Assembly (NCBI RefSeq): GCF_017940815.1 | Contig: NZ_JAGAXX010000085.1 | Coordinates: forward strand, 1-40,292 | Length of the DNA stretch: 40,292 nucleotides | Reading direction: 5' to 3' | Origin: Methanobrevibacter sp. | GTDB taxonomy: Archaea > Methanobacteriota > Methanobacteria > Methanobacteriales > Methanobacteriaceae | Shown: in pieces, positions 8,001 to 29,900 of the stretch | How positions within the stretch are numbered: the stretch's first letter is position 1 | How the letters are laid out: every line of letters starts with the position of its first letter | The notes under the pieces: model-generated | Database searches by the model: none | Told to the model about the DNA's origin: nothing | The model's input: only the letters and a program-made list of their open reading frames with translations | Translations under genes and position numbers: made by a program

Positions 8001-11000
8001 TAAATCATTTTTATCCAAAACAACTGTAAATGAAAGTGTTGTATTTACAGCAGTATTTGCTTACACCTTATCAAGATTCATCGGCGATGATAAAGTTCTG
8101 TTTAATATAACTGATAATGGCCGTGATAGATTCAATAATTATGGCGCAATTGGCATGTTTGTAAACACCTTGCCTATTTTAGTTGATTGTAAAAATCACA
8201 ACATTTCAGATTTCATGAACTATATGTCCGGTTTGATTTATGATGTGATGAGATATGATTATTATCCATTTAGATTATTGGCAAGTGAGTATGATATTGA
8301 TTCCAGCATAATATTCCAATTCCTGCCGGATTGGGTTTCTGTCGATGAAGACGATGAAAAAATTTATTTTGATGATGAAGACCTTTTACGTGCGGCGGAT
8401 TCAATCAATGATTTGACTGCAAATGTTGTTCAAAATGGTAATGAGTACAATTTAATTCTTTTGTATTCTGATAAATATTCTGAAGATCTGATGAGAAGAT
8501 TCGGTGAAGTATATAAATTGATTTTATCACAGTTAATCAATGTTAGCGAGTTATCCGACATTGAATTTATTTCAAAATTTGACATTGAACTTTTAGATTC
8601 TATTAATCAGAATTCCCATTACTGGGATTATGACGATATCCTTGATGCTTTTAATGACCATCTAGGTAAAAATCAGGATAATGCTTTGGTATCTTTTAAT
8701 GATGCATCCTATAGCTATGCTGAAGGTGCCTTCATTGCGGATAAGATAGCTAATCATTTAAGGGATATGGGTGTTGGGCCGCAGGATAATGTTGCTTTTA
8801 TGGTTGAAAGATCTGAACTGTACATGTTTGTGGTATTGGGCATTCTATCTTCGGGTGCAGCTTTTGTTCCTTTAGATGATGCGCTTCCCGATGAACGTAT
8901 AGGATTCATATTGAATGACTCTGACGCTAAGGTTGTTCTTGTCAGCGATGAAACTTATGAACGTGCAAGTAAATTAACAGATAATGCATCATTTTTAAAT
9001 ATTTCAGATTTTAAAGAAAATTTGGGCAGATTATCAAGTTTGCCTGTTGTGTATGGGGATACTGCATGTATTTTATACACAAGTGGCACTACAGGTTTTC
9101 CTAAAGGAGTAAAAGTTACAAGAAAATCCATTCTTAACGTCGCTGCCGTTTATTCCAGTAAGTTCAACTTTGGCAGTGATGATGTTTACGGCTTGTTTGC
9201 CAATATTGGTTTTGATGCAGGTTCATGGGCAATTTGCCAAACATTATATGCAGGAGCCTGTCTGTCAATTGTTCCGGATGAAATTAGGCTCGATGTGTAT
9301 GAATTAAACAAGTATTTCTTAAATCATGATGTTAACCATTGTATGATGACCACTCAGGTAGGTAAACTGTTCATGGAAAATATTGATGATGCTTCTTTAG
9401 ATGTTTTAATGGTTGGCGGTGAGAAATTAGGTGATTTTGAAAGCCCTGAAGATTATCTTTTAATTGATGGATTCGGACCAACAGAAACATTCGCATTCAT
9501 ATCATCAATCAACAACTCAGATAAGATCGATTCATCATCCATCGGTCAGATTAACTATAACAGTAAAGTGTATATTTTGGATGATGAATTTAGACGTGTG
9601 CCGGTTGGTGCCGTCGGTGAATTGTATATTTCCGGTTATCAGGTTGCTGATGGTTACTTGAACCGTGAAGAGGATAATGTTAAATCATTCATTGATAATC
9701 CATTTGATGATGATGAAGATTACGGAACCTTGTACCGTACCGGGGATATGGTTAGATTGTTGCCGGATAAAACTTTAGCTATCCTTAATCGTCGTGACAG
9801 TCAAGTTAAAATCAGGGGAAATCGTGTTGAATTGTCTGAAATAGAGATGGTGGTTCGTGAAATTGGCTTTGTTGAAGATGTGACCATTCAAACTATTAGT
9901 AATGGTGCTAACAAGGAGCTTGTTGCATATGTGGTTGTGACAAATGAATTGGATGGTAATGATTTGCATGATTTCATTTGTGATTATGTTGGCCAGCAAA
10001 AGCCCGAATATATGGTTCCTTCATTTGTAGTTAAATTGGATGAAATTCCTTTAAATGTCAACGGTAAAGTGGATAAAAGAGCACTGCCTGAAGTGAATAT
10101 GAGTAGTTTACGTGCGGAATATCTTGCACCTAGTACCAAAGATGAGAAATTAATTGTGAATGCCTTCGAGAAGGTATTCGGTCAAAAAAGAATCAGTCTG
10201 AATGATGATTTTGTTCGTCTTGGCGGTGATTCACTAACGGCAATCAAATTGGTCTCATATCTTGAGGGATATAATATTTCTGTTGCGGATATTTTAAATT
10301 TACGCACTCCATTGGCAATTGCGGGAAGCATTAGGGAATTCAGCTTTGATGTGGATAAATATTCTTTAGAAACAGGCTGTCCTTTAACGGAATCTCAATT
10401 GAACATTTATTTGGATATCCTTGCAAATAATAAAACCGATTCATACCTTATTCCACTCAACATTACCATTCCAAGAGAATATGACGTGGAAAGTTTAGTG
10501 GACTCAATAGAAAAGATGTTTATTGTTCATCCGATCTTGAACATGAGAATCAGTGAGGAATTTGATTCCCCTTACTTGGTTAAAGGCAATAATCCATCAA
10601 TCATTGTTAAATCTGAAGTTAGTGATGAATTCGGACGTGAATTTGTCACCAAACCCTTTGATTTAGAAGACAGTTTGTGCAGATTTTTAATTCTTAAAAA
10701 TGATGAGATGTATAATCTTTTCGCTGTTTTCCACCATTTAATCTTTGATGGATTGTCCTCTTCCGTATTTGAGCATGATTTATTCAATGTTTTAAATCAT
10801 AAGTTCATAGAATTTGACGATATGTTTTTAAAAGTGCCTGCTTTTAATGAACAGATTTCTGAATTGGAGGAATTTAAACTTGCAGGTTCCTTTTATGAAT
10901 CCCTATTGGCGGATGCAGAGGACACGGGCATTCTATTGGCCAGCGTCAATCCGGATGGTCCCGGAAGCCATAAGATTGATTTGGATGTGAGCATTGGTGA

Positions 11001-14000
11001 GTTTTTAGAAGAAAATGATGTCAGCGAAAATGTTTTGTTCACAAGTGTCTTTGCATATACATTATCCCGGTTTGTTGGAAATGATAAGGTGTTCTTTAAT
11101 ATTATTGATAATGGCCGTGACAGATTAAACAATTTCAACTCCATAGGAATGTATGTAAACACTTTGCCGTTGGTAGTTGATTGCAAAAACCGGGACATCA
11201 ATTCCTTTTTAGAGTATATGTCCGAACTTGTTTACGGCGTGATGGGATATAATTATTATCCGTTCAGGTTAATGGCCAGCAAATACGAAATTAATTCCGA
11301 TATACTGTTCCAATTCCAGCCTGAATGGTTTGTTAAGGATGATGTGACTTTCAGTGAAAACACATTCGACAGGATAGTTAATGAAAATATCATTGATGAA
11401 ATGGATGATTTGATATGTGAATTGAGTGTAGAGGTAATTCAAAAGGCCGACAATTATATGTTGAATATTGTATATTCCGATAAATACTCTAAAGACCTGA
11501 TTACTCGTTTTGCCGATTCATATAAATTGATTTTATCTGATATGGTTAATGTTAACAAATTATCTGAAATTGACTGCACCGCTTCATCTGATATAATGCT
11601 CCTGGATGATTGCAACAATACAAATCATCTATTGGCATTTGATGACATTATGGATGCATTCAATGACAATCTTTTCAGATGTCCTGAAAATAAACTAGTG
11701 TCCTATAATGAGAAATCATATAGTTATGCTAAAGGAGCTTACATTGCTTATGAAATTGCAAAAAGATTAATGGATTTGGGCGTTAAACCACAGGACAATG
11801 TTGCTTTCTTAACCGAACGTAGCGAGCATTACATGTTTAGCGTTTTGGGTATTTTATCTGTTGGTGCAGTTTATGTTCCGTTGGATGACGAGCATCCGGA
11901 TGACCGTATAAAATTCATACTTGGGGATACCGCCTCCAAGGTCATCATTGCAAGCGATGAAACATATGGTCGTGCTAAAGCGTTATTTTCGGGTGATGTT
12001 TTAAACATTTCGGAAATAGTTGAAGGCGATATTGGAAGTTTGGGAAGTTTGCCTGTTGTCAATGGTGATTTGGCTTGCATATTATACACCAGCGGATCAA
12101 CCGGCATTCCTAAAGGTGTAAAGATTACTCGAAAGTCTGTTTTAAATATTTCCCAGTATTATAAAGATACTTACGGTTTGGACAGTGAGGATGTTTTCGG
12201 TTTATATTCATCTATTGGATTTGATGCATCTAGCTTTGCTATTTTTGCCACAGTTTATGCTGGTGCTTGTTTATCTGTTGTTCCAGCTTCAATTAGATTG
12301 AACATGTCTGAATTAAATAGTTATTATATTGAGCAAGGAATCAAGCATACGTTCATGACTACTCAAGTGGCAAAGCTCTTCATTAACCACATTGATGAAA
12401 CTTCCCTGGAGATATTGCTCACGGGTGGTGAAAAACTGGGTGAATTTGCAGGTCCTGATGAATTCACGTTAATTGATGTCTATGGTCCTACAGAATCATA
12501 CACGTTCACAAATACTGTTGTTGTCAATGAAAAAATAGATTATTCCTCAGTCGGTTTCCTGTCATATAATGTTAAAGCATATATCTTGGATGCTGAAGGC
12601 AGGCGCGTTCCATTTGGTGCAGTCGGCGAATTGTACATTTCAGGTTATCAGGTTGCTGAAGGATACTTGAACCGTGACGAGGAAAACGCCAATGCATTCA
12701 TTGAAAATCCTTTCGATGATAATGATGATTTCCATTTATTGTATCGTACAGGAGACATTGTAAGGTTCTTGCCAGATAACTCTTTGGGTATCGTCGGTCG
12801 TCAGGATAGTCAGGTCAAAATCAGAGGAAACCGTGTCGAATTGCCGGAAATTGAGGAGGTAATTCGTGAAATTGATTATGTGAATGACGTGACCGTTCAA
12901 ACTGTTAAACATGGGGAAAATAATGAAGTTGTAGCATATGTTGTGGTAAATGAAGAGTTTGATGATGATGAACTTAAGGATGCGGTTTGTGATTATGTGG
13001 CCGAACGCAAGCCTGAATATATGATTCCATCATTTGTAATGAAATTGGATTGCATTCCTTTGAACATTAACAGTAAAGTTGACAGACGTGCATTGCCTGA
13101 AGTTGATGTGGGCAATTTGCGTGTTGAGTATGTCGCACCAACAACACAAACAGAAAAGATAATTGTCGAGGCATTTGAAGAATTGTTTAACTTTGAAAAA
13201 ATAGGAATACATGATGATTTTGTTAATTTGGGCGGGGATTCATTAAAGGCAATTAGGCTCATGTCAATATTAACTAAAAAATCGGTCAATATTGATGTAA
13301 GCAGTATTTTGACTGTTCGAACACCATACAATATTGCGCAACATGTTGATAATGAACCTGAAGGATATGGATTTGTTTTATCTAAAAGGGGCAATGCTGA
13401 TAAGAACATGTTTTTATTGCCTCCAATAGGAGGATTATCTTTAATATTTTCTAAATTAATCGATAATATTGATTTTGAAGGTAATATTTATACAATTGAC
13501 GATATTAAGTATTCATTACATTTGGATCAGTTGAATGACATGGATAACGGCAATTGTACTTTGGATGCATATTACAATGCCATTAAAGATATTTTCAATG
13601 ATGGCGACATTATTGTAGGATATTCCTTAGGTTGCATATTTGCTTCCCTGCTGGCTGAAAAATTGGAAAATGATAATAAAACTGTTGAAAAATGTATTTT
13701 TATTGATAGTGATTTGTTATTTGATAGAAATCAAGAAATATCTCCAGATGATGTCTTTAATGAATTTGTAAGTGATGGTGATAAGCATTCCGATGATTTT
13801 GTTGATAAATTTGAGGAGGTAGTGAGAATTAACTCTAAATTGAATTTTGAATCTCCTGAAGTCAAAACAAAGATAATCTTTTTATCAACCTCAGATTTAT
13901 TCGAAAAAAGATTGGCTGATATTTCATCAGATTATGAATATGTTGTCATTGATTCAACTCATCAAAGAATTATTGGCGAGGATATTGATAAAATAATTAA

Positions 14001-14016
14001 GTATTTTAATTCATAA
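5044..14016 (+). CDS. Non-ribosomal peptide synthetase 1: three modules plus thioesterase
   Basis: A 2990-residue cytoplasmic megasynthase. Domains in order: partial condensation-like segment (1 to ~180); A1 (~196-690, TSGTTGLPKG near 344); carrier T1 (GGDSL near 725); C2 (from ~778, HHLIFDA with H896/H897); A2 (~1197-1690); T2 (near 1727); C3 (from ~1779, HHLIFDG with H1897/H1898); A3 (~2200-2690); T3 (near 2730); type I thioesterase (~2789-2990, GYSLG with Ser2861 and probable catalytic His2973). Each A domain keeps the terminal Lys (NGK or NSK, then VD). Nine-residue pocket readings aligned by eye to GrsA are DVFTLGVMF, DAWTMGGAF and DAFTLGVTF; none matches a code I know. The N-terminal segment lacks the half of a C domain that carries HHxxxDG, so A1 must start the chain. 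The expected product is a tripeptide, linear or cyclic. It needs a phosphopantetheinyl transferase from elsewhere. Divergent from the MATE exporter; no MbtH is present. Confidence 0.93.
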   Translation: MFDVDEAGILLKDIGNNSHGSFSIDLKLDISKLDVEEDVFFTSVFAYTLSRFTGNEKVLFALAQNDSSSLPLLVDCKNSDILSFIDSVRESIGYCEKNIVDANPEIIFNCQLEEMDSFDFNANIAKKDNCNHSLTIIHSQNYSKDTIERFANSFKSIARGFFNVNELKDIIYTSKSDLDILDSYNQTQHQSKYGDILDAFNYHLAESPDNVLVSYGDVFYTYSQGAFLADKIANKLAELGVKIQDCVSFLVECSELYMLSVLGIVSMGGVYVPLDEAHPDDRIQFMVKDTESHVVIVSDETYERARNLFADLTLLNISDIVKEEIGTLSSLNNTCGELACMMYTSGTTGLPKGVKITRKSILNISQYYEDTYGMSKDDVYGLYASIGFDVASFGIFAAIYVGACLSVVPSDIRLNMVELNRYYLNQNITHTVMTTQVAKLFIQNVDETSLKYLLTGGEKLGDFKSPEDFVLVDVYGPTESFMFTNSVIVKDKIDFSSVGFLNNNVKSYILDDEGRRVPFGAVGELYLAGYQVAEGYLNRDEENAKAFVENPFDDDENYKVLYRTGDIMRYLPDGSLGVVGRRDSQVKIRGNRVELLEVDEVIREIDYVEDVTVQTVKHNTNNELVVYVVVNNDMDELELNNVVSKYVGERKPEYMIPSFVIKLDAIPLNVNGKVDKRALPAVDRDKFRAEYVAPRTEAEKTVVGIFKKIFDQENVGIHDDFVRLGGDSLTAIRFLSYLESFNFSAANILKLRTPEAIAKFIERDDEFDLDVYSIKEGCPLNEPQLNVYLDVIANNKFDSYHIPFRRNIDKELDVDRICQALNTMLDVHPILGMCIDDSKDVPYLVKGSKPEISIDHNADDERIDNFFTKPFDLYDSLSRFLIVETDDECQLFGVFHHLIFDALSNEVFKQDLESILNGDGVDVDDSFLKVSAFTQQIQNSQEYESAGKFYGSMLADSDDAGVLLKSVSSDGEGMMEFDLDLNLDLFKSFLSKTTVNESVVFTAVFAYTLSRFIGDDKVLFNITDNGRDRFNNYGAIGMFVNTLPILVDCKNHNISDFMNYMSGLIYDVMRYDYYPFRLLASEYDIDSSIIFQFLPDWVSVDEDDEKIYFDDEDLLRAADSINDLTANVVQNGNEYNLILLYSDKYSEDLMRRFGEVYKLILSQLINVSELSDIEFISKFDIELLDSINQNSHYWDYDDILDAFNDHLGKNQDNALVSFNDASYSYAEGAFIADKIANHLRDMGVGPQDNVAFMVERSELYMFVVLGILSSGAAFVPLDDALPDERIGFILNDSDAKVVLVSDETYERASKLTDNASFLNISDFKENLGRLSSLPVVYGDTACILYTSGTTGFPKGVKVTRKSILNVAAVYSSKFNFGSDDVYGLFANIGFDAGSWAICQTLYAGACLSIVPDEIRLDVYELNKYFLNHDVNHCMMTTQVGKLFMENIDDASLDVLMVGGEKLGDFESPEDYLLIDGFGPTETFAFISSINNSDKIDSSSIGQINYNSKVYILDDEFRRVPVGAVGELYISGYQVADGYLNREEDNVKSFIDNPFDDDEDYGTLYRTGDMVRLLPDKTLAILNRRDSQVKIRGNRVELSEIEMVVREIGFVEDVTIQTISNGANKELVAYVVVTNELDGNDLHDFICDYVGQQKPEYMVPSFVVKLDEIPLNVNGKVDKRALPEVNMSSLRAEYLAPSTKDEKLIVNAFEKVFGQKRISLNDDFVRLGGDSLTAIKLVSYLEGYNISVADILNLRTPLAIAGSIREFSFDVDKYSLETGCPLTESQLNIYLDILANNKTDSYLIPLNITIPREYDVESLVDSIEKMFIVHPILNMRISEEFDSPYLVKGNNPSIIVKSEVSDEFGREFVTKPFDLEDSLCRFLILKNDEMYNLFAVFHHLIFDGLSSSVFEHDLFNVLNHKFIEFDDMFLKVPAFNEQISELEEFKLAGSFYESLLADAEDTGILLASVNPDGPGSHKIDLDVSIGEFLEENDVSENVLFTSVFAYTLSRFVGNDKVFFNIIDNGRDRLNNFNSIGMYVNTLPLVVDCKNRDINSFLEYMSELVYGVMGYNYYPFRLMASKYEINSDILFQFQPEWFVKDDVTFSENTFDRIVNENIIDEMDDLICELSVEVIQKADNYMLNIVYSDKYSKDLITRFADSYKLILSDMVNVNKLSEIDCTASSDIMLLDDCNNTNHLLAFDDIMDAFNDNLFRCPENKLVSYNEKSYSYAKGAYIAYEIAKRLMDLGVKPQDNVAFLTERSEHYMFSVLGILSVGAVYVPLDDEHPDDRIKFILGDTASKVIIASDETYGRAKALFSGDVLNISEIVEGDIGSLGSLPVVNGDLACILYTSGSTGIPKGVKITRKSVLNISQYYKDTYGLDSEDVFGLYSSIGFDASSFAIFATVYAGACLSVVPASIRLNMSELNSYYIEQGIKHTFMTTQVAKLFINHIDETSLEILLTGGEKLGEFAGPDEFTLIDVYGPTESYTFTNTVVVNEKIDYSSVGFLSYNVKAYILDAEGRRVPFGAVGELYISGYQVAEGYLNRDEENANAFIENPFDDNDDFHLLYRTGDIVRFLPDNSLGIVGRQDSQVKIRGNRVELPEIEEVIREIDYVNDVTVQTVKHGENNEVVAYVVVNEEFDDDELKDAVCDYVAERKPEYMIPSFVMKLDCIPLNINSKVDRRALPEVDVGNLRVEYVAPTTQTEKIIVEAFEELFNFEKIGIHDDFVNLGGDSLKAIRLMSILTKKSVNIDVSSILTVRTPYNIAQHVDNEPEGYGFVLSKRGNADKNMFLLPPIGGLSLIFSKLIDNIDFEGNIYTIDDIKYSLHLDQLNDMDNGNCTLDAYYNAIKDIFNDGDIIVGYSLGCIFASLLAEKLENDNKTVEKCIFIDSDLLFDRNQEISPDDVFNEFVSDGDKHSDDFVDKFEEVVRINSKLNFESPEVKTKIIFLSTSDLFEKRLADISSDYEYVVIDSTHQRIIGEDIDKIIKYFNS

Positions 14017-14224: not shown

Positions 14225-15097
14225 TTATATTCCAGAGCTTCCCTCTTGAATATTGTCCTTTTCAATCTTTTCATTCACTAATAATTTATTAATCCAACCG
14301 GATGCCCAGTCAGACAAGTCATCATTATCGAAAGGAGTTGGTAAAAACTTGTTTTTATTATCAATCACCTTTCTAGCAAGATTTCGGTAAACTTCTGCCT
14401 GTTCGGAATCAGGTGCTCCTTCAATAGTTGTCACACCATCCAATTCACAGCGTGTTACTGTAGGTGATCTTGGAACAAACTGAATTACATCACTATCAGT
14501 TTTGTCTGTAAAATCTTTGATCATATCTTCTTGGAGGGATGATTTAATGGAATTTCCAATAACACCACCCAATAATGCACCACCGTTGTTTGAATATTTT
14601 AATATTCCTTTGAATAAATTATTGACAGCATAAATGGCCATGTAATCAGATGAAGTTACAGTATATACCTGATCAGCAATTCCTTTACGAATAGGCATTG
14701 CAAATCCACCGCACACAACATCTCCCAAAACATCATAAATAATAATATCCGGGTCATATTCGTCAATGACGCCGTTCGTATTTAATAGTTCAATTGCTGC
14801 AATAATTCCTCTTCCTGCACATCCCACACCAGGTTCCGGACCTCCCGCTTCAATACAATATATTCCGTTATATCCCTCATGAACAAGTTCGTCCAAATCG
14901 CTTGATCTTTTTCTTACGGTGTCCAGGACTGTTGGGATTGATTTACCTTTTCTTAATGTTGTTGTTGAGTCGTTTTTAGGGTCACAACCTATTTGCATTA
15001 CACTATATCCCAAATCTGACAATGCTGCAGATAAATTTGAAGTTGTTGTTGACTTTCCTATTCCTCCTTTTCCATAAATTGCTATTTGTTTTGGCAT
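14225..15097 (-). CDS. NifH-like iron protein (ATP-dependent reductase component)
   Basis: A 290-residue P-loop ATPase of the nitrogenase iron-protein family. It would form a homodimer holding one [4Fe-4S] cluster and pass electrons to the D-K partner at the cost of ATP. Visible motifs are Walker A GKGGIGKS (residues 9-16), the cluster ligand Cys93 in GVGCAGRG, and Cys129 in [10 protein letters not shown]. Both cysteines expected of the family are therefore present. GAGGTGAT, about five bases upstream, is a strong archaeal ribosome binding site and fixes the start. It is the last gene of the operon, 18 bp after the K-like gene. The protein alone cannot separate a true NifH from CfbC-type or other nitrogenase-like iron proteins; the partners (two distinct subunits) argue against CfbC. 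Confidence 0.9.
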
Positions 15098-15115: not shown

Positions 15116-16486
15116 TTATAACGGTCCTACAAATGAACTTACAATGTCTTCAACCAGTGTCAATCCTCCGTCATATCCTGCATAATGCTTTACAAGAACA
15201 GACTTGTTATATATCGGATATGAAATAGGGATATGTAATGCATTATAATCCTCTATTGATGTTGGGGATTCGATTGAACTGGAAAATAGGAATAAAAATG
15301 GCCTATCTTCTAGGTTTTTCCTAATCTTATAGGTATCAGCTTCAAATACCACATCCGGTTCAACCACTGTGTCTAGATTATTTTTAATTTCATCCAATAT
15401 TTCATTTCTAACTTCAACTGGAGGATTGTCGGTAATTTGAATGATGTCCGGCAAGTATCCTAATTCATTTGCCAAAAATTTAGTAAATCCAATGGCGTAA
15501 CTGCTTTCGGCGGCAACTGCATAGAATGAATTCGGACGCACCAATATGATCGCATCACCGGGATATTCCATCAGCCTGTAGTTCCAGTCTTCTTTCTGAT
15601 TGATAAACTCTTCAACTGTTTGAGATGGAACGGATAATTTTTCACCGACTTTTCTTAGGAATTCAGCGGTTTGCTTTGCTCCAATTGGAACATTCGGAAA
15701 CTTGATGAATGGTGTCCCATATTTTTCTTTTAGTTTTTCAACGGCCCTAACGCCTAACCATGGATTTACAACAATATTGTACTCTGCTGAAGGAATCCTG
15801 TTAATATGATCTAAACCATTTTTTTGAGTGAATATTATGTTAGCTTTGATACCTATTGATTCTAAAAGGGTTTTTATTGTTAATAAATCGCCTTTCCAGT
15901 AAACATGGTTATATGGAACAATTCCGAAAATATTAACGGTTTTTTCCTCAATGTCTCCAGCGTCATCAGGCAGCAGCTGGTCAATTATCGCATCCCAGAA
16001 TAAATTATATCCTTCTAATGAATTTGCTTTAAATCCTGGTGCATTGACGTGAATTACGGCCGCTTTGTCTCTGAATTCATCAACTACCTGGTCAACATCA
16101 TCACCAATTAATGACGGAACACAACCTGAGGTTACGACAAACAAGTCATCATTTGCTATTTCAATTGTGGATTCTATTAAATTTCTGAGTTTTTCTTCAC
16201 CACCTAAAATCACATGCTCTTCAACCAGACAGGAACAAGGGGTACTTGTTCCCCCTTCATTTCCTCCTGCTGATTCTCCTCCGGCGTATAATGTTCCGAA
16301 TAACTGTCCGACACCACATCCGGCACCGGAGTGTAATATTGGAATTCCTCCTCTAATTCCTAATGTGGTTCCATAAACTCCCGCTAAAGCACAACTGTAT
16401 CTTGGGGCTTCAACTGAGTCTCTTTCAAAATTCTCAACATTAGTTAATATTCCTGACTTATTCTCTAATGCTTTTTTGCAAGTCAA
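15116..16486 (-). CDS. Nitrogenase-like component 1, K-type (beta-like) subunit
   Basis: About 457 residues of the nitrogenase component 1 fold, pairing with the D-like subunit upstream. Three P-cluster-type cysteines sit in the expected settings: Cys32 (RYSCALAG), Cys57 (SGAGCGVG) and Cys122 (VTSGCVPSLIGDD). The family segment VEEHVILGGEEKL lies between them. The C-terminal third ends in the K-type pattern (ISYPIYN then GYDGG). The start is placed at the TTG at 16486 because AGGAGG lies seven bases upstream. An ATG at 16516, overlapping the end of the D-like gene by 14 bp, would add ten residues but has no such site. A TPCSC motif (Cys84, Cys86) is unusual. No cofactor-site Cys or His is expected in a K subunit. 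The reaction is unknown. Confidence 0.85.
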   Translation of the reverse strand: MTCKKALENKSGILTNVENFERDSVEAPRYSCALAGVYGTTLGIRGGIPILHSGAGCGVGQLFGTLYAGGESAGGNEGGTSTPCSCLVEEHVILGGEEKLRNLIESTIEIANDDLFVVTSGCVPSLIGDDVDQVVDEFRDKAAVIHVNAPGFKANSLEGYNLFWDAIIDQLLPDDAGDIEEKTVNIFGIVPYNHVYWKGDLLTIKTLLESIGIKANIIFTQKNGLDHINRIPSAEYNIVVNPWLGVRAVEKLKEKYGTPFIKFPNVPIGAKQTAEFLRKVGEKLSVPSQTVEEFINQKEDWNYRLMEYPGDAIILVRPNSFYAVAAESSYAIGFTKFLANELGYLPDIIQITDNPPVEVRNEILDEIKNNLDTVVEPDVVFEADTYKIRKNLEDRPFLFLFSSSIESPTSIEDYNALHIPISYPIYNKSVLVKHYAGYDGGLTLVEDIVSSFVGPL

Positions 16487-16502
16487 TATAATTCCTCCTA
16501 GA

Positions 16503-18068
16503 TTATTTTCCTTCATTTAGGTAGTATAATGGATTGTCCTGTTCATACCACCAATCTTTATAACTTTTTTCTGTTTTTTCCGCTAAGGTCTTATGATAAG
16601 ATTTGTTTTTAAATGCATGCAACAGGAAGTTACCGAATGCTATTGCACCAGCATAACCTGATTGGGCACTGGTCGGTTCGGGATCTCCTCTTAAAGAGTG
16701 AATTCTTGTTACATTATTGTCTCTTTCCCAGGTACCTCCTTGGAATGGGCAGGTTAATGTCAAATCTGGATCTAAATTAGTGGTTACGTTAGCCTGTTCG
16801 GCAGCTTGGAACGTATTGACCATTATTTGGAAATCTCCATTATTTTCAATAATTTCTTCTAATTCGTCTATCAGCAAGTCATCAAAATCTTGAGCCATTG
16901 CAGCAGGTGTCGCCAAACCTAATTCGTCAAAGTAAGGCATTTGAGAAACCAATCTTCCCTGACCAAGTGATCCTAAAACAGTTGGTTTTTTACCGTTTTT
17001 TCTTAATTTAACAAATTCGTCTTTAATTGCATTCATTTTAGGAACCCAAATTTTGTGTTCCTCTTCAATGAGTTTTTCAACTTCATCCTCTTTTCCGGTA
17101 TATTTGGCTATATTTCTTAACCATTCATCAGTATTGGAAATACCTGTTGGGGAAGGATATAGGAAATATGGCACTCCATACTTTTGCTCTAATCCTCTAG
17201 ATAAGTAATCAGTATATGTTGGGCATATTGGAGCTGTTACTGCTGCTTCAGACAGCTGTTCAAAGTCGGAAACTGTCGCAAATTCTGGAATGAAGTTAAC
17301 TCTAAGTCCTAGTTTTCCGAGCAATCTTTTTATTTCAAGTCTGTCTTGCCAGGTGTAGGATAGCATACTTGCAACGTTAACAAGGTCCTCTTGCTTTTTC
17401 TCAGGTTCCTTAACAAGATATTTTAGGATTGCATGCCAAAATGCATCGTAACCGGTTTGCACCAATCTGCTTCTAATACCTTCACAATGGATAGGCACAA
17501 TTTTAGCGTTTACTTCATCTTGAACCTCATCAACTGTTCCTTCAATGTCTTCACCGATAATTCCGGTGGTACATGAGGTTAATATGAATATTGCCTGAGG
17601 GTTGTATCTTTCTTCTGCTTTTAAAATTGCATCTCTGAGTTTTTCAGAAGCTCCATATACAACGTCATCCTGTTGTAAATTGGTTGTTAGCCATGCGGAA
17701 TTATATTCATTTGTTCTGCCCAATGACTCAGGAACTCCACGATATAACTCTCTGTAACCTAGAGAACCTGCAGAGCATCCAACAGGAGCGTTGAATATTG
17801 TCACTGCATCACGAATTGTGGTTACTCTATTTGAAAGATAGAAATTTAACACACAACCTCCTGATTGTTGGAATTTTCTGTCTGGAATTCTTATGTTTCT
17901 TTGTTTTGCATCATTTAGCAATTCAGATGCTTTACCGTAATATACGTTGGTACCGTTAGCCCTTTGTTCTCTGTTAGGGCAGGTATCTTTGTCTAAATCA
18001 AGTATTTTTTTAATTTTATTTCTTTTACATGATCCCTTTCTATGATGTTTGTCATGTTTATTAGCCAT
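16503..18068 (-). CDS. Nitrogenase-like component 1, D-type (alpha-like) subunit
   Basis: 521 residues. P-cluster-type cysteines: Cys72 (SGGCVLN), Cys98 (APVGCSAG) and Cys166 (LTSCTTGIIGEDI). By eye, PICPTYTDYLSRGLEQKYG aligns without gaps to the NifD segment holding the FeMo-cofactor ligand Cys275, giving Cys282. RIHSLRGD aligns to the segment with His442, giving His457. CfbD and protochlorophyllide-type relatives lack these, so a nitrogenase-size iron-sulphur cofactor is plausible. The start is the ATG at 18068 after GGTGAG; an upstream ATG at 18098 would run through the operator palindrome. The N-terminus is rich in Lys and His. It is first in a D-K-H operon, an order unlike classical nifHDK. 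Not proof of nitrogen fixation: NifB, NifE and NifN are absent here. Methylthio-alkane-reductase-like activity is one alternative. Confidence 0.87.
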   Translation of the reverse strand: MANKHDKHHRKGSCKRNKIKKILDLDKDTCPNREQRANGTNVYYGKASELLNDAKQRNIRIPDRKFQQSGGCVLNFYLSNRVTTIRDAVTIFNAPVGCSAGSLGYRELYRGVPESLGRTNEYNSAWLTTNLQQDDVVYGASEKLRDAILKAEERYNPQAIFILTSCTTGIIGEDIEGTVDEVQDEVNAKIVPIHCEGIRSRLVQTGYDAFWHAILKYLVKEPEKKQEDLVNVASMLSYTWQDRLEIKRLLGKLGLRVNFIPEFATVSDFEQLSEAAVTAPICPTYTDYLSRGLEQKYGVPYFLYPSPTGISNTDEWLRNIAKYTGKEDEVEKLIEEEHKIWVPKMNAIKDEFVKLRKNGKKPTVLGSLGQGRLVSQMPYFDELGLATPAAMAQDFDDLLIDELEEIIENNGDFQIMVNTFQAAEQANVTTNLDPDLTLTCPFQGGTWERDNNVTRIHSLRGDPEPTSAQSGYAGAIAFGNFLLHAFKNKSYHKTLAEKTEKSYKDWWYEQDNPLYYLNEGK

Positions 18069-18089: not shown

Positions 18090-18107
18090 ATATAACAATT
18101 GTTATAT
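18090..18107. promoter_or_regulatory. Operator palindrome next to the TATA box of the nitrogenase-like operon
   Basis: ATATAACAATTGTTATAT is a perfect 18-bp palindrome. It sits 22 bp upstream of the D-like ATG and directly downstream of TATATAAT (about 18108-18118, read on the minus strand). That places it at or next to the likely transcription start, where a bound protein would block initiation. The same half-sites recur at 18412-18429. Confidence 0.65.
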
Positions 18108-18411
18108 TATATATTGGAAGTCAATATCTCTCATTCAATTGTTAAAAATTAATTAAACTTCTCATAACAGCTTAATTGAAAATTTCCCATAATATAATTT
18201 AAAAATAAAGGTCTGGCATTTAAAAAACATTATTATTAATTAAAAGGAAAAAAATAAATCTTTATTTAAAGATTAAAATTAACAATAGCATTTACTTACA
18301 AAAAATATTACATACACATGTATAAAGGCATGCACATGTGACAACATTTTTGGTTCATTATTTTACTTCTACACATATTTTTTCACCTTTATCTCGTATT
18401 TGTTTAATTTT

Positions 18412-18429
18412 TTATAACTATTGTTATAA
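18412..18429. promoter_or_regulatory. Second copy of the TATAAC-N4-GTTATA operator
   Basis: TTATAACTATTGTTATAA has inverted seven-base arms (TTATAAC/GTTATAA) around TATT. Its core matches the palindrome at 18090-18107. It lies about 345 bp upstream of the D-like start, in non-coding DNA. Paired distant sites can support looping or may serve a second promoter. Confidence 0.55.
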
Positions 18430-18681
18430 AAGTAGTCTGGTAATAATAGGATAGGTTTTTATAGTATTTAAATATTTATACATTTTGTATACATTTTATT
18501 GTCATTGATGGCAATCATATAGATTTTTGCACTAAATATGCATTTTTCTATTATTTTGTATAATAATCTTTAATTTGACAATATCAGTTTGAAAATCGCT
18601 TAAAATATAGATTACTCAAGAAAATCGTAGGTTGAATTCTACAAAAAGTAATTACTGCATCCTAGTGGGGTTGTAAACTAA

Positions 18682-18729: not shown

Positions 18730-20418
18730 TTATCTTTTTGATGCAATAACTGCATTTTTAATTCCAAATGGTGGAGCCTCTATGTTGAAATTTGAATTTT
18801 TCACCATGGCTTCCACTCCTTTTCTTCCGCCTGGAAGGTAATCGTAGGTGTTTTTTGGAATAAATACTAATCCACCGACCTTAATGTAAGAGCATATTTT
18901 AAAAATTAACTTGATTGATTCCTCGTCATTCAGGGCCATAATGCTTTTATTTAAATTGATAAGGATATAATCGAAATGACCATGCAGCCTGCGGATATTT
19001 TCCGGTTTGAGTTGCAGGATATTTGTGTCTGGAATATCCTGGTCGGTTATCAATAAGCCATGCCCGTATTTTTCTGTGGATTTGATGAGATTTTGAAGCC
19101 TGCTGATTATCTCTTTCTTATTTATCTTTTTGTCTTCGTCAGATTCTTCGCTTAAAATCAATTGAAATGCATTTTTCTCAACGCTTCTTAAGAATTCAAC
19201 GTCTTCATCAACTGCATTTCGGTTGGTGTTGGCCAAAAATATAATGCCACAGGTTGTGTTCAGGTCTTCAGTTTTGACAAACAGCTCTGTTTCATTAATT
19301 TTATGTAGTGTGCTGTCAAAATAGCTTTTTAATTTTGGAGCGATGTTCATCATAGGAACGGACTTTGCAAGAATGTCTTCTGGAGCAATGAACAGTTTCA
19401 CGGTTCCGTTTCCAGGAGGTCTGTAAATCTGTTTTCTTTGTTCATTAAATCGTTCAGGATTCAGATATGAATCTAAAATTGAATCTGTGTCGTGTTGGCC
19501 AAAAATCATGTCAAGATATTCGGATTTCATGCTCAAACCCGCTGGGCGGCAGTTCACTTCAATGAGCACTGGTCCCTTATCATCTATCATGTATTCTCCA
19601 TGAACAGGACCATACTCTATTCCGATTGCACGAACTACATCATATGCGTATTCCACCATTTCAGCTTCGCCCAAATTTAAGCTGTTCACTGAATTGATGG
19701 TGTCATAAACTATGGCTCCTTCAGAAGTCTTGATCTTTTCATATTTCCACATTGAAATTAGGCGAGGGATTCCTTCACATGAGGTAGTATTTACTATATA
19801 TTCCTCTCCGTTGATGCGTTCTTGAACCAGAAGTTCAGTATTTTCATCACCATATGCATTGTTTTTGTTAAATATCTCTTTTAGGGAATCAATCATTTCC
19901 TGTTTGTTTAAGCAAATACGCACTCCAACAGAACAAAAACTATAAATAGGCTTTATAACTACCTCCTTTAGGGATTGAGAATCATAAAACTCGATTGCTT
20001 CTTCAATTGAAGTGACAACCTTTCCCCTGATGTGCCTGAGCCCTGCTTCAGCAAGTCTTTCATGCATCTTATCTTTTAGGGTCATGGAGTCCAAATGTTT
20101 TATTGGGGTTCCCAAAAGGCCCAAATCGTTTGATAATCTTGATGTTAGGATAACTCCACGTTCGCTGCCTGCAACTATGAGCAAAGGATCTAGTTTGCGA
20201 ACTGTTTCAAGAGTTTTTTCATAAGTGTCCTGTTCATAGATAATATCATATTCATATTCAATTCTACTGTAATTGCTTTGCATTTTTTGTTTATATTCTT
20301 CAGGATTCGCTTCACCAGGCAACAATTCCAGTATGACGGGCTTATATCCTCTATTTACAATATCTTCAATGTAATTTGTTCCTGATGAAATGCAATCCAC
20401 TACTATGATATGTTTCAT
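18730..20418 (-). CDS. ATP-grasp ligase with an extra C-terminal domain
   Basis: 562 residues. The first ~350 form an ATP-grasp ligase like those that join amino acids (BacD/carnosine-synthase-like). There is an N-terminal Rossmann-like part (MKHIIVVDCISSG), a nucleotide-binding segment VVIKPIYSFCSVGV, LLVQERINGEEY, and the metal-binding PVLIEVNCRPAG. Such enzymes activate a carboxylate as an acyl phosphate and couple it to an amine, giving a peptide-like bond. The last ~200 residues are extra. Their end (HFDYILIN, then YIKVGGLVFIP) resembles the back half of a class I methyltransferase, but no SAM-binding glycine loop was seen, so this is a weak guess. GGGAG just upstream supports the ATG. 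Its place between two NRPS loci suggests it may add to or alter a peptide; this is inference. Confidence 0.75.
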   Translation of the reverse strand: MKHIIVVDCISSGTNYIEDIVNRGYKPVILELLPGEANPEEYKQKMQSNYSRIEYEYDIIYEQDTYEKTLETVRKLDPLLIVAGSERGVILTSRLSNDLGLLGTPIKHLDSMTLKDKMHERLAEAGLRHIRGKVVTSIEEAIEFYDSQSLKEVVIKPIYSFCSVGVRICLNKQEMIDSLKEIFNKNNAYGDENTELLVQERINGEEYIVNTTSCEGIPRLISMWKYEKIKTSEGAIVYDTINSVNSLNLGEAEMVEYAYDVVRAIGIEYGPVHGEYMIDDKGPVLIEVNCRPAGLSMKSEYLDMIFGQHDTDSILDSYLNPERFNEQRKQIYRPPGNGTVKLFIAPEDILAKSVPMMNIAPKLKSYFDSTLHKINETELFVKTEDLNTTCGIIFLANTNRNAVDEDVEFLRSVEKNAFQLILSEESDEDKKINKKEIISRLQNLIKSTEKYGHGLLITDQDIPDTNILQLKPENIRRLHGHFDYILINLNKSIMALNDEESIKLIFKICSYIKVGGLVFIPKNTYDYLPGGRKGVEAMVKNSNFNIEAPPFGIKNAVIASKR

Positions 20419-23910: not shown

Positions 23911-26900
23911 ATGTCTAATAATGAAACTAAAATCGTTTTAGCTGATGAGGATTTATGCATGCTGAGTGAAGCTCAAATTGATGTTTATATGGATGAAACA
24001 AACAACAATGAATGCACCATATATAATAATCCTTATAAAATAAATTTGAATGGAAAATATTCTGTAATTGAAATTAAAAATGCCATCTGCAGGTTATCTG
24101 AAATTTTTCCAGTTTTATCTGCACGTATTGTAGTTGATGGGGAAAAGGTCTCTTTTGCTTTTGATGCAGATTTTCCAGTAATTGAAGGGACTGCTGCTGA
24201 TGCAAAGTCCTTTGTGGTTCCATTTAACTTGGAAAAAAACTTATCTAAATTTTTGATTGTTGAAGATAATGATTCCAAGTTGTTATATGTCGATTTGCAT
24301 CAATTGATTTTTGATTGCAGGTCACTAAACATTCTATTAGATGCATTGGTATCTGTTTTGGATGGAGATGATTGCGATTTTGTCGATGATGGTGCCTTAA
24401 GACGAATTGCCCTTGAAAATACAATAATCGATTCAGCTTATAAAAATGATGCCGGAATCTTTTATGAATCCATGTTATGTGATCGGGAAGAGGTTTATGA
24501 ATTATTGCCTTCCATTAAAACAGATTCTGATGAATATTTCAGATATGTGTCCTCATTTGACATGGATTTTAATAATCTAGACTCATTTTTGCAAAATAAT
24601 TCAATTTCCCGTAATCAATTTTTCACAAGTGTTTTTGCTTATAATTTGTCAAGGTTTACAGGTTCCTCAAAGGTACTGTTTAATCTTGTTGAAGATGTTA
24701 GAGGCCAAATTGATTCTCCAAATGCGGTTGGAATGTTGTCTAACACTTTGCCTCTCTTATTTGACTGTAAAAATCAAAATGTAAATTCATATTTAAAATA
24801 TTCTGCTAATTTAATTGATGCGGCTAATGACTTTGCTTTATATCCATTCCAAATTTTAAAAGAGGAATACGGTTTAAATTCAGATATTTTATTCCAATAT
24901 GTTGCAAATGATTTTGATGTCGAGGAATTAAGACATGACATTCCTTTTGATTTATCATTTTATATTTCCTGTGAGGATGCTGTTGAAATAAAGGTTCTAT
25001 ATTCAGATAAATATTCAAAAGATTTCATTGAACATTTTGCAGATTCATTCATGGCTATTGCGAATTCCATGATGAAAGTTAATGAATTATTGGACATTGA
25101 TTATGTCTCCTCATCAGATTTGGAAATTCTGGATGACGTTAATAAGACAGAACAGGATTTAGGTTATGAAGATATTTTAGATGCATTTAATGATAATCTG
25201 GACAAAACTCCAAATAATATCCTTGTTTCATTTATGGATAAGTCCTATACCTATTCCGAGGGGGCTTTTATTGCGAATAAGATTGCTAAACGATTGTTGG
25301 AGTTGGGTGTTGAAGCACAGGATAATGTTGCCTTTTTAACTGAGCGTTCTGAGTGTTATATGTTCAGTGTTTTAGGTATTCTTTCTGTGGGTGCGGTTTA
25401 TGTGCCGTTGGATGATAAGCATCCTGATAATCGTCTGCAGTTTATTTTGCAGGATACAGAATCTAAGGTGGTCATTGTTAGTGATGGAACTTATGAGCGT
25501 GCAAAAGAGTTAGTTAATAATTCAATTGTTTTTAATATATCCGATATTGTTAAAGATGAGAGGGGGTCATTGTCTAGCTTGCCTGTGACTTATAATGATT
25601 TGGGTTGTATATTATACACCAGTGGTACTACAGGCATGCCTAAAGGTGTTAAAGTTCCAAGAATCGCTCTTGTTAACCTGTCCTCATATTATGTTAGAAA
25701 TTATGCTTTGACCAGTGATGATGTTTTCGGGTTATATTCATCTATTGGTTTTGATGCTGCATGTAAAGCAATCTTTGCTGCCATTTATGCGGGATCTTGC
25801 TTGGATGTCATTCCAAATGATGTTAAATTAGATATTAATGCACTGAATAATCACTTTAAAACTCAGGGAATAAATCATGTTGACATCACCACACAAGTCG
25901 CCAAGTTATTGGTTTCTCAAATAGAGGATATTCCATTGGATGTCTTATTCACTGGTGGTGAAAAATTAGGTGAATTTGATGAGGAGGTTAACTGTCGTTT
26001 TGTAGATGGGTATGGACCTACTGAAGCATATGTTGAAATTTCAACTGTTGATGTATTGGGAAGAATTGATCCATCATCTATTGGTCATTTGGTTGACAAT
26101 ATGAAGGCATATATCTTGGATGATGAGGGAAGACGTGTTCCAGTGGGTGCGGTTGGTGAATTATACCTGTCAGGTTATCAGGTTGCCGATGGCTATTTAA
26201 ACCGTGATGAGGAAACAGAAAAGGTATTTTTAGACAATAACTTTTTGGATGATGAAAATTACGCTACATTATATCGTACAGGAGACATTGTGCGCTTATT
26301 GCCTGATGGCACTTTGGGTATTGTGGGCCGTCGTGACAGTCAGGTTAAAATCAGGGGAAACCGTGTGGAATTGTCTGAAATTGAATCAGTAATCCGTGAA
26401 GTTGACCATGTTGAGGATTTAACTCTCCAGACAGTTAAGCGTGGCACCAACAACGAACTTGTGGCATACGTTGTTTCAAGTCTTGAAAATGACGATGTCG
26501 TAGCCGATTCCATTTGCGATTATGTTCGTGAACGTAAACCTGAATATATGGTTCCTTCATTTGTAATCTGTTTGGATGAGATTCCTTTGAATGTTAACAG
26601 TAAAGTTGATAAGAGAGCCTTGCCTGAAGTCGATGTAAAAGGATTACGTGCAGAATATGTCGCACCTACCACTGAAATTGAAAAACAAATAGTCAGTGCA
26701 TTTGAAAAAGTTTTTAATCAGGAAAGAATTGGTATTTACGATGACTTTGTTCGCCTTGGAGGGGATTCGTTATCTGCAATTAAATTGTTGTATTATATTG
26801 ATGAGTATAATCTCTCTGCAGCAAATATTTTAAGTTTACGCACTCCTAAGTCAATTTCTGAAAGTGTTAATGTAACTACTTTTGATTTGGATACATATTC

Positions 26901-29900
26901 ATTGGAAAGTGGATGTCCTTTAAACGAACCTCAACTAAATGTTTATTTGGATATCATGGCAAATGACAAGTCAGACTCTTATATTATTCCAGTAAAGGTT
27001 CATGTTCCTAAAGATTACTCTTTAAAAGAAATAACTGATGCATTAGATGAGATGTTTAGGGTTCATCCTATCTTGAAGATGAGGATAAGTAAAGAGTTTG
27101 ATGTTCCTTATCTTGTCAAAGGAAACAAACCGGTCGTTTCATTCGAATCTAGTGATTTTGATAGGGATTCCATCCTTGAATTTATTAGTGAACCTTTCGA
27201 TTTAGAGGATTGCATGTGCAGATTCTTAATAGTTGAGGATGGAGATGGATATGATCTGTTTGCCGTTTTCCATCATTTGATTTTCGATGGCTTTTCAGTT
27301 CTTGTATTTGAGCCGGATTTATTTGATATTCTTAACGGCAAATCTTTGGATATGGATGATTCATTTTTAAAAGTATCTGCTTTTAGCAATCAGATAACTG
27401 AAACAGATGACTTTGACGAAGCTGCCTTGTTTTATAAGTCCATGTTGGCAGATGTTGATGAATCTGCTGTTTTATTAAGCAATGTTTCTCCGGATGGACC
27501 GGGAGATTATAATATTGATTTGAATGCTGATGTAAGTAAATTTTTAGAGAAATATAATGTTAGTGAGAATGTTTTATTCACGGGAGTGTTTGCTTATACA
27601 TTATCTAGGTTTGTAGGTGATGATAATGTATTTTTCAACATTGTAGAGAATGGTAGGGACAGGTTTAAAAACTTTAACTCCATAGGAATGTTTGTTAATA
27701 CGTTGCCGATAATGGTGGACTGTAAAAATCGTGATGTCGGATCTTTTTTAAATCACATGTCTGATGTGATTTACAATGTTATGGGTTACAATTATTATCC
27801 TTTCAGATTATTGGCTAATGATTATGATATAAATTCCGATATACTATTCCAATACAGGCCAGATTGGTTTGATGAAGGACAAGCTACATTCGTTGAGGAT
27901 ATTGATGATGAGATTGAGGAAAAGTTCATCGGTGAAATGGGAGACTCAGTAAGTGACTTGAGTGTTGTTGTCACTCAAAATTCTGATGACTATAACCTGG
28001 ACATATTGTATTCTGATAAATTTTCCAGAGAATTTATTGAACGTATTGCAGAGTCATTTAAATTAATTTTACATGATATTATTGATGCTGATGAGTTATC
28101 AGACATTAATTATATTTCATCTTCCGATTTAATGCTTTTAGATAGCTATAATGAAACTGATCGTCCTTTAGATTATGGGGACATTATGGATGCATTTAAT
28201 GATAATTTGTCTAAACATCCTGACAATAAGCTTGTTTCATGCATGGACAGGTCATATAGCTACGCTGAAGGTGCATTTATTGCGGATAAAATAGCTAAAC
28301 AGTTGATTGAGTTAGGTGTTGAAGCGCAGGATAATGTTGCATTTTTAACAGAACGTTCTGAGCATTACATGTTCAGTTCTTTAGGTATTGTGTCTCTTGG
28401 TGCGATTTGTGTTCCTTTAGATGTAAATCATCCAGATGAACGTTTGGAATTTATCTTAAATGACACTGATTCTAAGGTGATTATTGTCAGTGACGAGACT
28501 TATGAACGCGCTAAAAATTTATCCGATGTGGCTGTTTTAAATATTTCTGAAATGGTTTGGGGAGATATAGGAACTTTAGACTCATTACCTATTGTTTATG
28601 GTGACTTGGCTTGCATGTTGTATACCAGTGGCACTACTGGTGTCCCTAAGGGGGTTAAAATTACACGAAAATCCCTTTTAAATCTTTCACAGTTCTTTAG
28701 TGAAACTTATGACTTCACCAGTAATGATGTATATGCACTATATTCAAGCATTAGCTTCGATGCAGGTCCTCAAGCGGTTTTCCAATCAGTATATGCTGGG
28801 GCATGCTTGTCTATAGTTCCAGAGGACATTAAATTCAATATTCAAAAATTGAATGAATATTTCATTAGACAAAACGTTACCCATACCTTTGTTTCCACAC
28901 AAGTGGGTAAGATGTTCATGGAGCAAATAGACGATACGTCATTAAATGTATTGTCTGTTGGTGGTGAAAAATTAGGAAATGTAAAAAATCCTGAAAGATA
29001 TAGGCTGGTTGATGAATTCGGTCCGACTGAAGCATTTGCATTCATTTCCTCAATTGAAAATTCAGATAAGGTTGATGAGTCATCTATCGGATTCTTTAAT
29101 TATAACTCTAAGGAATATATTTTGGATGCTGAGGGCAGGCGTGTTCCTTTCGGAGCCGTTGGAGAATTATGCATATCCGGTTATCAGGTTGCGGACGGAT
29201 ATTTGAATCGTGACGAGGAAACAAATAAATCTTTCTTGGACAATCCGTTTGACAGTTCCGAGGGGCATGATGTCCTGTACCGTACAGGTGATTTGGTGCG
29301 CATGCTGCCTGATGGGTCTTTAGGTATTGTTGGCAGGATGGACGAACAGGTTAAAATCCGTGGAAACCGTGTTGAATTATCTGAAATCGAATCAGTGATT
29401 CGTGAACTTGATTATATTGATGATGTGACCGTTCAAACAATCAAACATGGGTCAAATAATGAACTGGTGTCCTATGTTGTGATATCCAAGTATATGGATG
29501 AAAATGTTCTCAGGGACGGTGTTTGTGATTATGTTTCTAAAAATAAACCTGATTTCATGATTCCTTCATATGTCATTAGATTGGATTCAATTCCTTTAAA
29601 TGTCAATGGTAAGGTTGATAAACACGCTTTGCCTAAAGTGGACCTCACTGCTATGCATGTTGAGTATGTTGCAGCAACAAATGAAACTGAGCAAATGATT
29701 ATCGATGCCTTTGAAAGTGTGTTTAATATAGAAAATATCGGTTTATTTGATGATTTCGTCCGTTTGGGTGGTGATTCAATTTCTGCTATCAGGGTTATCA
29801 CCATGCTTCAGAAAAATGGCGTTTCATGCACTGCAAGGGATATTTTAAATCATAAGACTCCTTATCTAATCGCTCAAAATCTCACAGAATTTGAAGAGGA

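Follow-up and report, generated by a model that had tools for sequence, protein, structure and literature searches.

What governs a nitrogenase-like operon in Methanobrevibacter whose leader carries two copies of the same palindrome? We analysed a stretch of 40,292 nucleotides (the window) in which this operon lies on the minus strand. The palindrome closer to the operon, ATATAACAATTGTTATAT (18090-18107), is perfect over 18 bp, and its 14-bp core begins 37 nt ahead of the ATG of the marD-like gene. The distal copy, TTTTATAACTATTGTTATAAAA, has perfect 9-bp arms, reaching TTTTATAAC/GTTATAAAA, around one non-complementary centre pair; its core, TATAACTATTGTTATA, occupies 18413-18428, and the two sites are 322 bp apart. 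An earlier note on this DNA had described a perfect 18-bp palindrome and a near-perfect second copy about 320 bp upstream, and both are confirmed as described. The exact pattern TATAAC-N4-GTTATA was found at 2 places in the 40,292 bases, against 0.00 expected from 100 dinucleotide shuffles. When two mismatches were allowed, the motif was only weakly above chance in the window (8 vs 3.7) and equalled its control across the window's genome (73 vs 73). It is thus the exact motif that carries the signal, and regulon sites were counted only if exact or with one mismatch.

Both sites recur before orthologous operons. All three sister species (G054, G055 and G095) have the pair, with the proximal operator in the same place: its core stands at -37 from the ATG in 4/4 species, despite a diverged leader between the sites. 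The distal site is kept in the same four species and in the next genus (g9), where sites lie at -35/-37 and, in addition, 350-545 bp upstream of the orthologous operon. Sites also precede this operon in g6 (G009), part of g12 (G121, G124) and g15 (G136), and they flank the nitrogenase-like H-D-K operon in termite-gut genera. None was found within 800 bp of the orthologous operons of the Methanosphaera group (G108, G109), or within 800 bp of the operon in relatives outside the family (Methanosaeta, Geotalea). At four loci of termite-gut Methanobacteriaceae (L154, L155, L156 and L158), nitrogenase-like H-D-K genes and NMT1/SsuA-like ABC transporters have operators interspersed, and two of the four also carry thiI.

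Each operator has a putative promoter in front of it. A conserved block contains the putative TATA box TTTAAATA (18465-18472, minus strand), which begins 44 nt before the distal operator and which we take, by the archaeal promoter consensus, to mark the distal promoter. For the proximal site, we infer a promoter in the block TTCAATTAAGCTGTTATGAGAAGTTTAATTA (18150-18180, minus strand), which includes an inverted repeat and is kept in 4/4 species; the putative TATA box within it, TTTAATTA, begins 51 nt before the operator. An Rfam search of the leader matched no family. Directly upstream of the leader lies a gene for an ATP-grasp ligase related to dapdiamide A synthase (18730-20418, minus strand), and the operon region is flanked by two giant open reading frames (ORFs) of 2990 and 4809 aa (5044-14016 and 23911-38340), which probably encode surface adhesin-like proteins.

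The motif is a feature of the family rather than of this locus. In 139 Methanobacteriaceae genomes, the exact palindrome ATAACAATTGTTAT was found 329 times, vs 25 for the reversed control, and in 18 genomes ATAACAATNGTTAT occurred 2-29 times per strand (control, 0-2). Outside the family, the motif was at background in the 13 complete relatives searched (1 vs 1 control). A logo built from 108 unique sites reads (A)TATAACAATTGTTATA(T). Nearly all sites are intergenic, ahead of promoter-proximal genes; few fall 'inside' genes, and most of these reflect over-long ORF starts. The earlier note had considered that the motif might occur at random frequency in an A+T-rich genome and not be conserved upstream of orthologous operons; it proved to be far above random and conserved there. 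One genome of genus g13 (G129) has 25 exact palindromes, several of them in pairs spaced by 24 bp and many close to the ends of contigs; a mobile or repeated element may be among them.

The genes next to the motif indicate its purpose. Both cysK and metY were among its neighbours in all five genomes first surveyed. Other sites in the window's genome precede cysK-cysE-HTH-cysS, metY, RNase III-metX genes and moaE; larE-ThiF and FdhD, a GMC oxidoreductase and pdxS; NMT1-like ABC-transporter binding proteins; and a glutamine-amidotransferase/glutamate-cysteine-ligase operon. Targets such as cysK, metY, moaE and ThiF come up again in seven further genomes (G033, G009, G055, G095, G019, G012 and G124), where others are new: thiI, sufC, nifB, fdhD and pyridoxamine kinase; an enzyme resembling cystathionine gamma-synthase, next to a rhodanese/TusA-like gene; and methanogenesis marker 16, which we take to be a DUF39-type protein linked to homocysteine synthesis. 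A few sites lie near genes with no obvious sulfur link, among them feoB, adhesin-like genes and what we assume to be possible [Fe]-hydrogenase cofactor genes. Because the motif's neighbours are sulfur genes, its targets read as a functionally coherent sulfur assimilation regulon, and this sharing rules out private operators of the nitrogenase-like operon. It also bears on the idea that these are chance or generic A+T-rich palindromes with no function: the genome is A+T-rich and the two-mismatch motif sits at control frequency, yet enrichment of the exact motif, positional conservation and functional coherence all contradict it, and we give it almost no credence. A separate observation concerns three loci (L201:1301-4918, minus strand; L221; L223) at which a glutamate-cysteine-ligase homologue and a class II glutamine amidotransferase adjoin an operator in methanogens, which suggests gamma-glutamylcysteine or a related thiol.

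A nitrogenase family operon in a methanogen invites comparison with NrpR, which acts on methanogen nif operons through the palindrome GGAA-N6-TTCC. The likeness lies in the palindromic operator before a nitrogenase-family operon, and the nitrogenase-like gene products would fit nitrogen control. The NrpR operator, however, differs in sequence, is absent from the leader and occurs at chance frequency in the window, as the note's statement that the site is unlike it implied; the other targets of the motif are sulfur genes. Control of the operon by NrpR is therefore extremely improbable. The same note had proposed that an unidentified repressor, and not general nitrogen control, probably governs the operon. 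The part that survives is a specific, non-NrpR regulator; the site itself is not private, being an operator of the predicted sulfur regulon. Since genes for cysteine and methionine synthesis have the same site before them, sulfur shortage, and not nitrogen status, very probably activates the operon, with a DNA-binding protein as yet uncharacterised as the probable mediator.

The enzyme itself also has relatives in sulfur metabolism. The operon encodes a NifD/MarD-like catalytic subunit of 521 aa (16503-18068, minus strand), in which the P-cluster cysteines Cys72, Cys98 and Cys166 and the cofactor cysteine Cys282 are conserved; a NifK/MarK-like subunit of 466 aa (15116-16516, minus strand), whose best solved relative is MarK (9FMG/9D9U); and a NifH/MarH-like iron protein of 290 aa (14225-15097, minus strand), closest to MarH (9FMG). 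The best solved match of all three is the Rhodospirillum rubrum methylthio-alkane reductase, Mar (9FMG; also 9D9U), a sulfur-salvage enzyme (PMC12552129). Cysteines 32, 56 and 121 of MarK align with cysteines in the K-like subunit, so that six P-cluster cysteines are matched. The resemblance to R. rubrum marBHDK thus covers three subunits and the P-cluster and cofactor cysteines, and extends to a nifB-like gene, which is under the same operator in G033 and, in Methanosphaera-like genomes, comes after the H gene of the operon (L160:10283-12176, L161:4313-6106). The differences are a low identity, which makes this enzyme a distant homologue; the lack of a histidine in the D-like subunit at the place aligned with MarD His429, the loop I ligand, although nearby Cys440 and His457 are retained throughout the relatives examined; and an operator limited to one archaeal family. 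Since predicted sulfur control and relatedness to Mar coincide, the sequence evidence favours organic-sulfur salvage over nitrogen fixation.

Which protein might read the motif? The best candidate is a 124-aa XRE-type helix-turn-helix (HTH) protein encoded between cysE and cysS (L006:4402-4776); where a winged-helix regulator had been expected, an XRE-type protein is thus the predicted one. Its HTH_3 domain narrowly passes the Pfam cut-off (23.6 vs 23 bits), and the predicted structure (pLDDT 82.7) has helices at 31-38 and 42-49, as expected. The HTH region (DITQPAVSQY...DKRG) and five cysteines, C5, C89, C92, C115 and C118 (CxxC...CxxC), are invariant in 24 sequences. The gene adjoins cysE or cysK in six genera (g1, g3, g6, g8, g9 and g15), as part of operons that follow a site, either cysK-cysE-HTH-cysS or metY-metX-cysE-HTH. 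In one Methanosphaera-group genome it neighbours a glutamate-cysteine-ligase-like gene, where the site has one mismatch, and in 11/11 further complete genomes of the window's genus an exact site lies at most 2.5 kb away. It was found in 77/78 good family genomes and not detected at 1e-8 in 13 complete relatives outside the family; being near universal, it cannot discriminate within the family, and its co-occurrence with the motif is confounded by phylogeny and A+T content. G137 has two copies of the gene and no exact palindrome. It is the conserved gene linkage, together with the matched range, that makes this protein the best candidate.

Another regulator could read the same sulfur-regulon operators, with the HTH gene doing something else. 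An ArsR-type regulator gene, possibly MsvR-like (L115:3263-4036, plus strand), is divergent from a ThiF gene across one site, and TrmB- and MarR-like genes occur near single sites. For the HTH protein, a PDB sequence search gave no specific relative, and a fold search returned generic helix-turn-helix folds only (E > 1), so that it stands without a solved homologue; it has no NCBIfam assignment either. Against a regulator of the MsvR (ArsR/V4R), TrmB or MarR type, only the cysE-linked HTH gene is consistently in regulated operons, in six genera, and its family-level range matches that of the motif. We regard such a replacement as somewhat unlikely. SurR of the Thermococcales (GTT-N3-AAC) and MsvR of methanogens are archaeal regulators with cysteine-based sulfur or redox sensing. 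Both differ from the candidate in protein family, MsvR being of the ArsR/V4R type; the SurR operator also differs, the pattern GTT-N3-AAC-N5-GTT being absent from the leader and at chance frequency in the window. In bacteria, cysteine regulators such as CymR and CysB each govern cysK, met genes, sulfur-compound transport and salvage. The arrangement proposed here resembles theirs in placing cysK, met, transport and salvage genes under a single regulator, the candidate being instead an archaeal HTH protein of the XRE type that bears a CxxC...CxxC cluster and whose gene accompanies cysE.

The leader between the two operators is not devoid of ORFs, although the note had stated that no coding sequence is involved. 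A 22-codon ORF, MCRSKIMNQKCCHMCMPLYMCM (18308-18376, minus strand), includes 5 Cys and 6 Met, half of its residues, and has a GGTG ribosome-binding site at 18384-18387. The sister-species peptides are MCRCKPMEQKYYHMCMPLFMCM, MCRCNCMMSQMCCRMCMPLVMCM and MCRCIIMVHKCCHMCMPLVMRM; across the four species the ORF has 22-23 codons, with one in-frame codon insertion in one of them, and the GGTG lies at a similar distance in each. In 5000 shuffles, no ORF combined 8 or more Cys+Met with a share of 40% or more. Among 67 genomes of the genus, the ORF signature was found in 4, exactly those that carry the operon. A one-mismatch match outside the genus was discarded as chance; it lies inside a long ORF read from the opposite strand. 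Two hairpins accompany the ORF. The first, a terminator-like 11-bp hairpin (18310-18339, minus strand; 1 found vs 0.1 expected), overlaps the Met-Cys-Met codons and the stop and is followed by a T-rich tract. The second, the A/T-rich AATCTTTAAATAAAGATT with a T tract (18240-18274, minus strand), is a possible terminator of a short transcript and is weak in 1/4 species.

These features are possibly those of a sulfur-sensing leader peptide. Amino-acid leader-peptide attenuators include the trpL type and the Cys-rich leader ORFs of actinobacteria, and the likeness to the trpL type consists of a short ORF enriched in the amino acids concerned, a ribosome-binding site, an overlapping terminator-like hairpin and a position upstream of the operon under its supposed control. 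On this model, ribosomes stalled at Cys/Met codons under Cys/Met shortage would block termination at the hairpin and U tract, leading to readthrough. The Cys/Met content, the conservation of ORF and ribosome-binding site with an in-frame insertion, the hairpin's overlap with Cys/Met codons and the strict occurrence with the operon in the genus all speak for it. On the other side, the hairpin is terminator-like only: its pairing is kept in 4/4 species, but there are no two-sided compensatory changes or other covariation, the folding z-scores are modest (-0.85 to -2.7), and one species lacks a good downstream hairpin. Archaeal transcription termination, moreover, depends chiefly on U tracts, and no such ORF was found in the leaders of the neighbouring genus g9. 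The setting is also different from that of trpL, being archaeal, with the ORF's own operator before it and a second putative promoter and operator, those of the downstream operon, after it, and any readthrough is putative. We hold an attenuator to be a possibility on the unlikely side.

The short ORF could instead encode a Cys/Met-rich microprotein that acts independently, perhaps as a metal- or cluster-binding helper of the enzyme, and is made from its own sulfur-controlled promoter. In favour of this are a putative TATA box, an operator and a ribosome-binding site belonging to the ORF itself, along with a possible terminator, and its strict association with the operon within the genus. Several of its cysteines vary, however (positions 4, 11, 12 and 21 among the four species), and it was not found in the other genera that have the operon. 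A microprotein is a plausible reading, if one of less than even probability. In the g9 leaders (L026-L028), a different leader takes the place of the short ORF; it has two conserved elements between the operators, a GCCCCTAAAAATT...AATTTTAGGGC inverted repeat and a CCCTCATAATTC block.

From the sites, their conservation, the regulon content, the linkage of the HTH gene and the conservation of the ORF, all read from sequence, we infer repression, the regulator's identity and signal, what the enzyme acts on and what the peptide does, as follows. The operators (consensus TATAACAATTGTTATA) would define a regulon for sulfur assimilation in the Methanobacteriaceae. The repressor dedicated to them, most likely the XRE-type protein of 124 aa with its CxxC...CxxC cysteines from the cysK-cysE operon, would be bound close behind the promoters while the supply of reduced sulfur, cysteine or Fe-S is adequate, and would leave its sites under sulfur shortage. 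Derepression would then turn on cysteine and methionine synthesis, sulfur transfer and the nitrogenase-like, Mar-like operon, whose enzyme may free sulfur from organic sulfur compounds. In the window's genus, the second operator would govern an upstream transcript encoding the Cys/Met-rich peptide of 22-23 residues; translation of this peptide may provide a further layer of control that depends on cysteine/methionine. We consider the core of this explanation, sulfur-regulon operators, an HTH repressor and a Mar-like operon derepressed under sulfur shortage, to be likely. Its extension to a two-layer sulfur switch, in which a family-specific CxxC...CxxC regulator is joined by a Cys/Met leader-peptide attenuator between the operators in one genus, is more speculative and, in our judgement, rather improbable.

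In the open-access papers searched, neither the regulon nor its operator or regulator is described. For Methanobrevibacter and its relatives, the analysis puts forward a proposed master regulator of sulfur metabolism together with its operator; it also offers a candidate archaeal leader peptide for sulfur amino acids, and gives the nitrogenase-like operon of rumen methanogens a testable function class, sulfur salvage. Gut sulfur supply and nitrogenase-family chemistry would then be directly linked.
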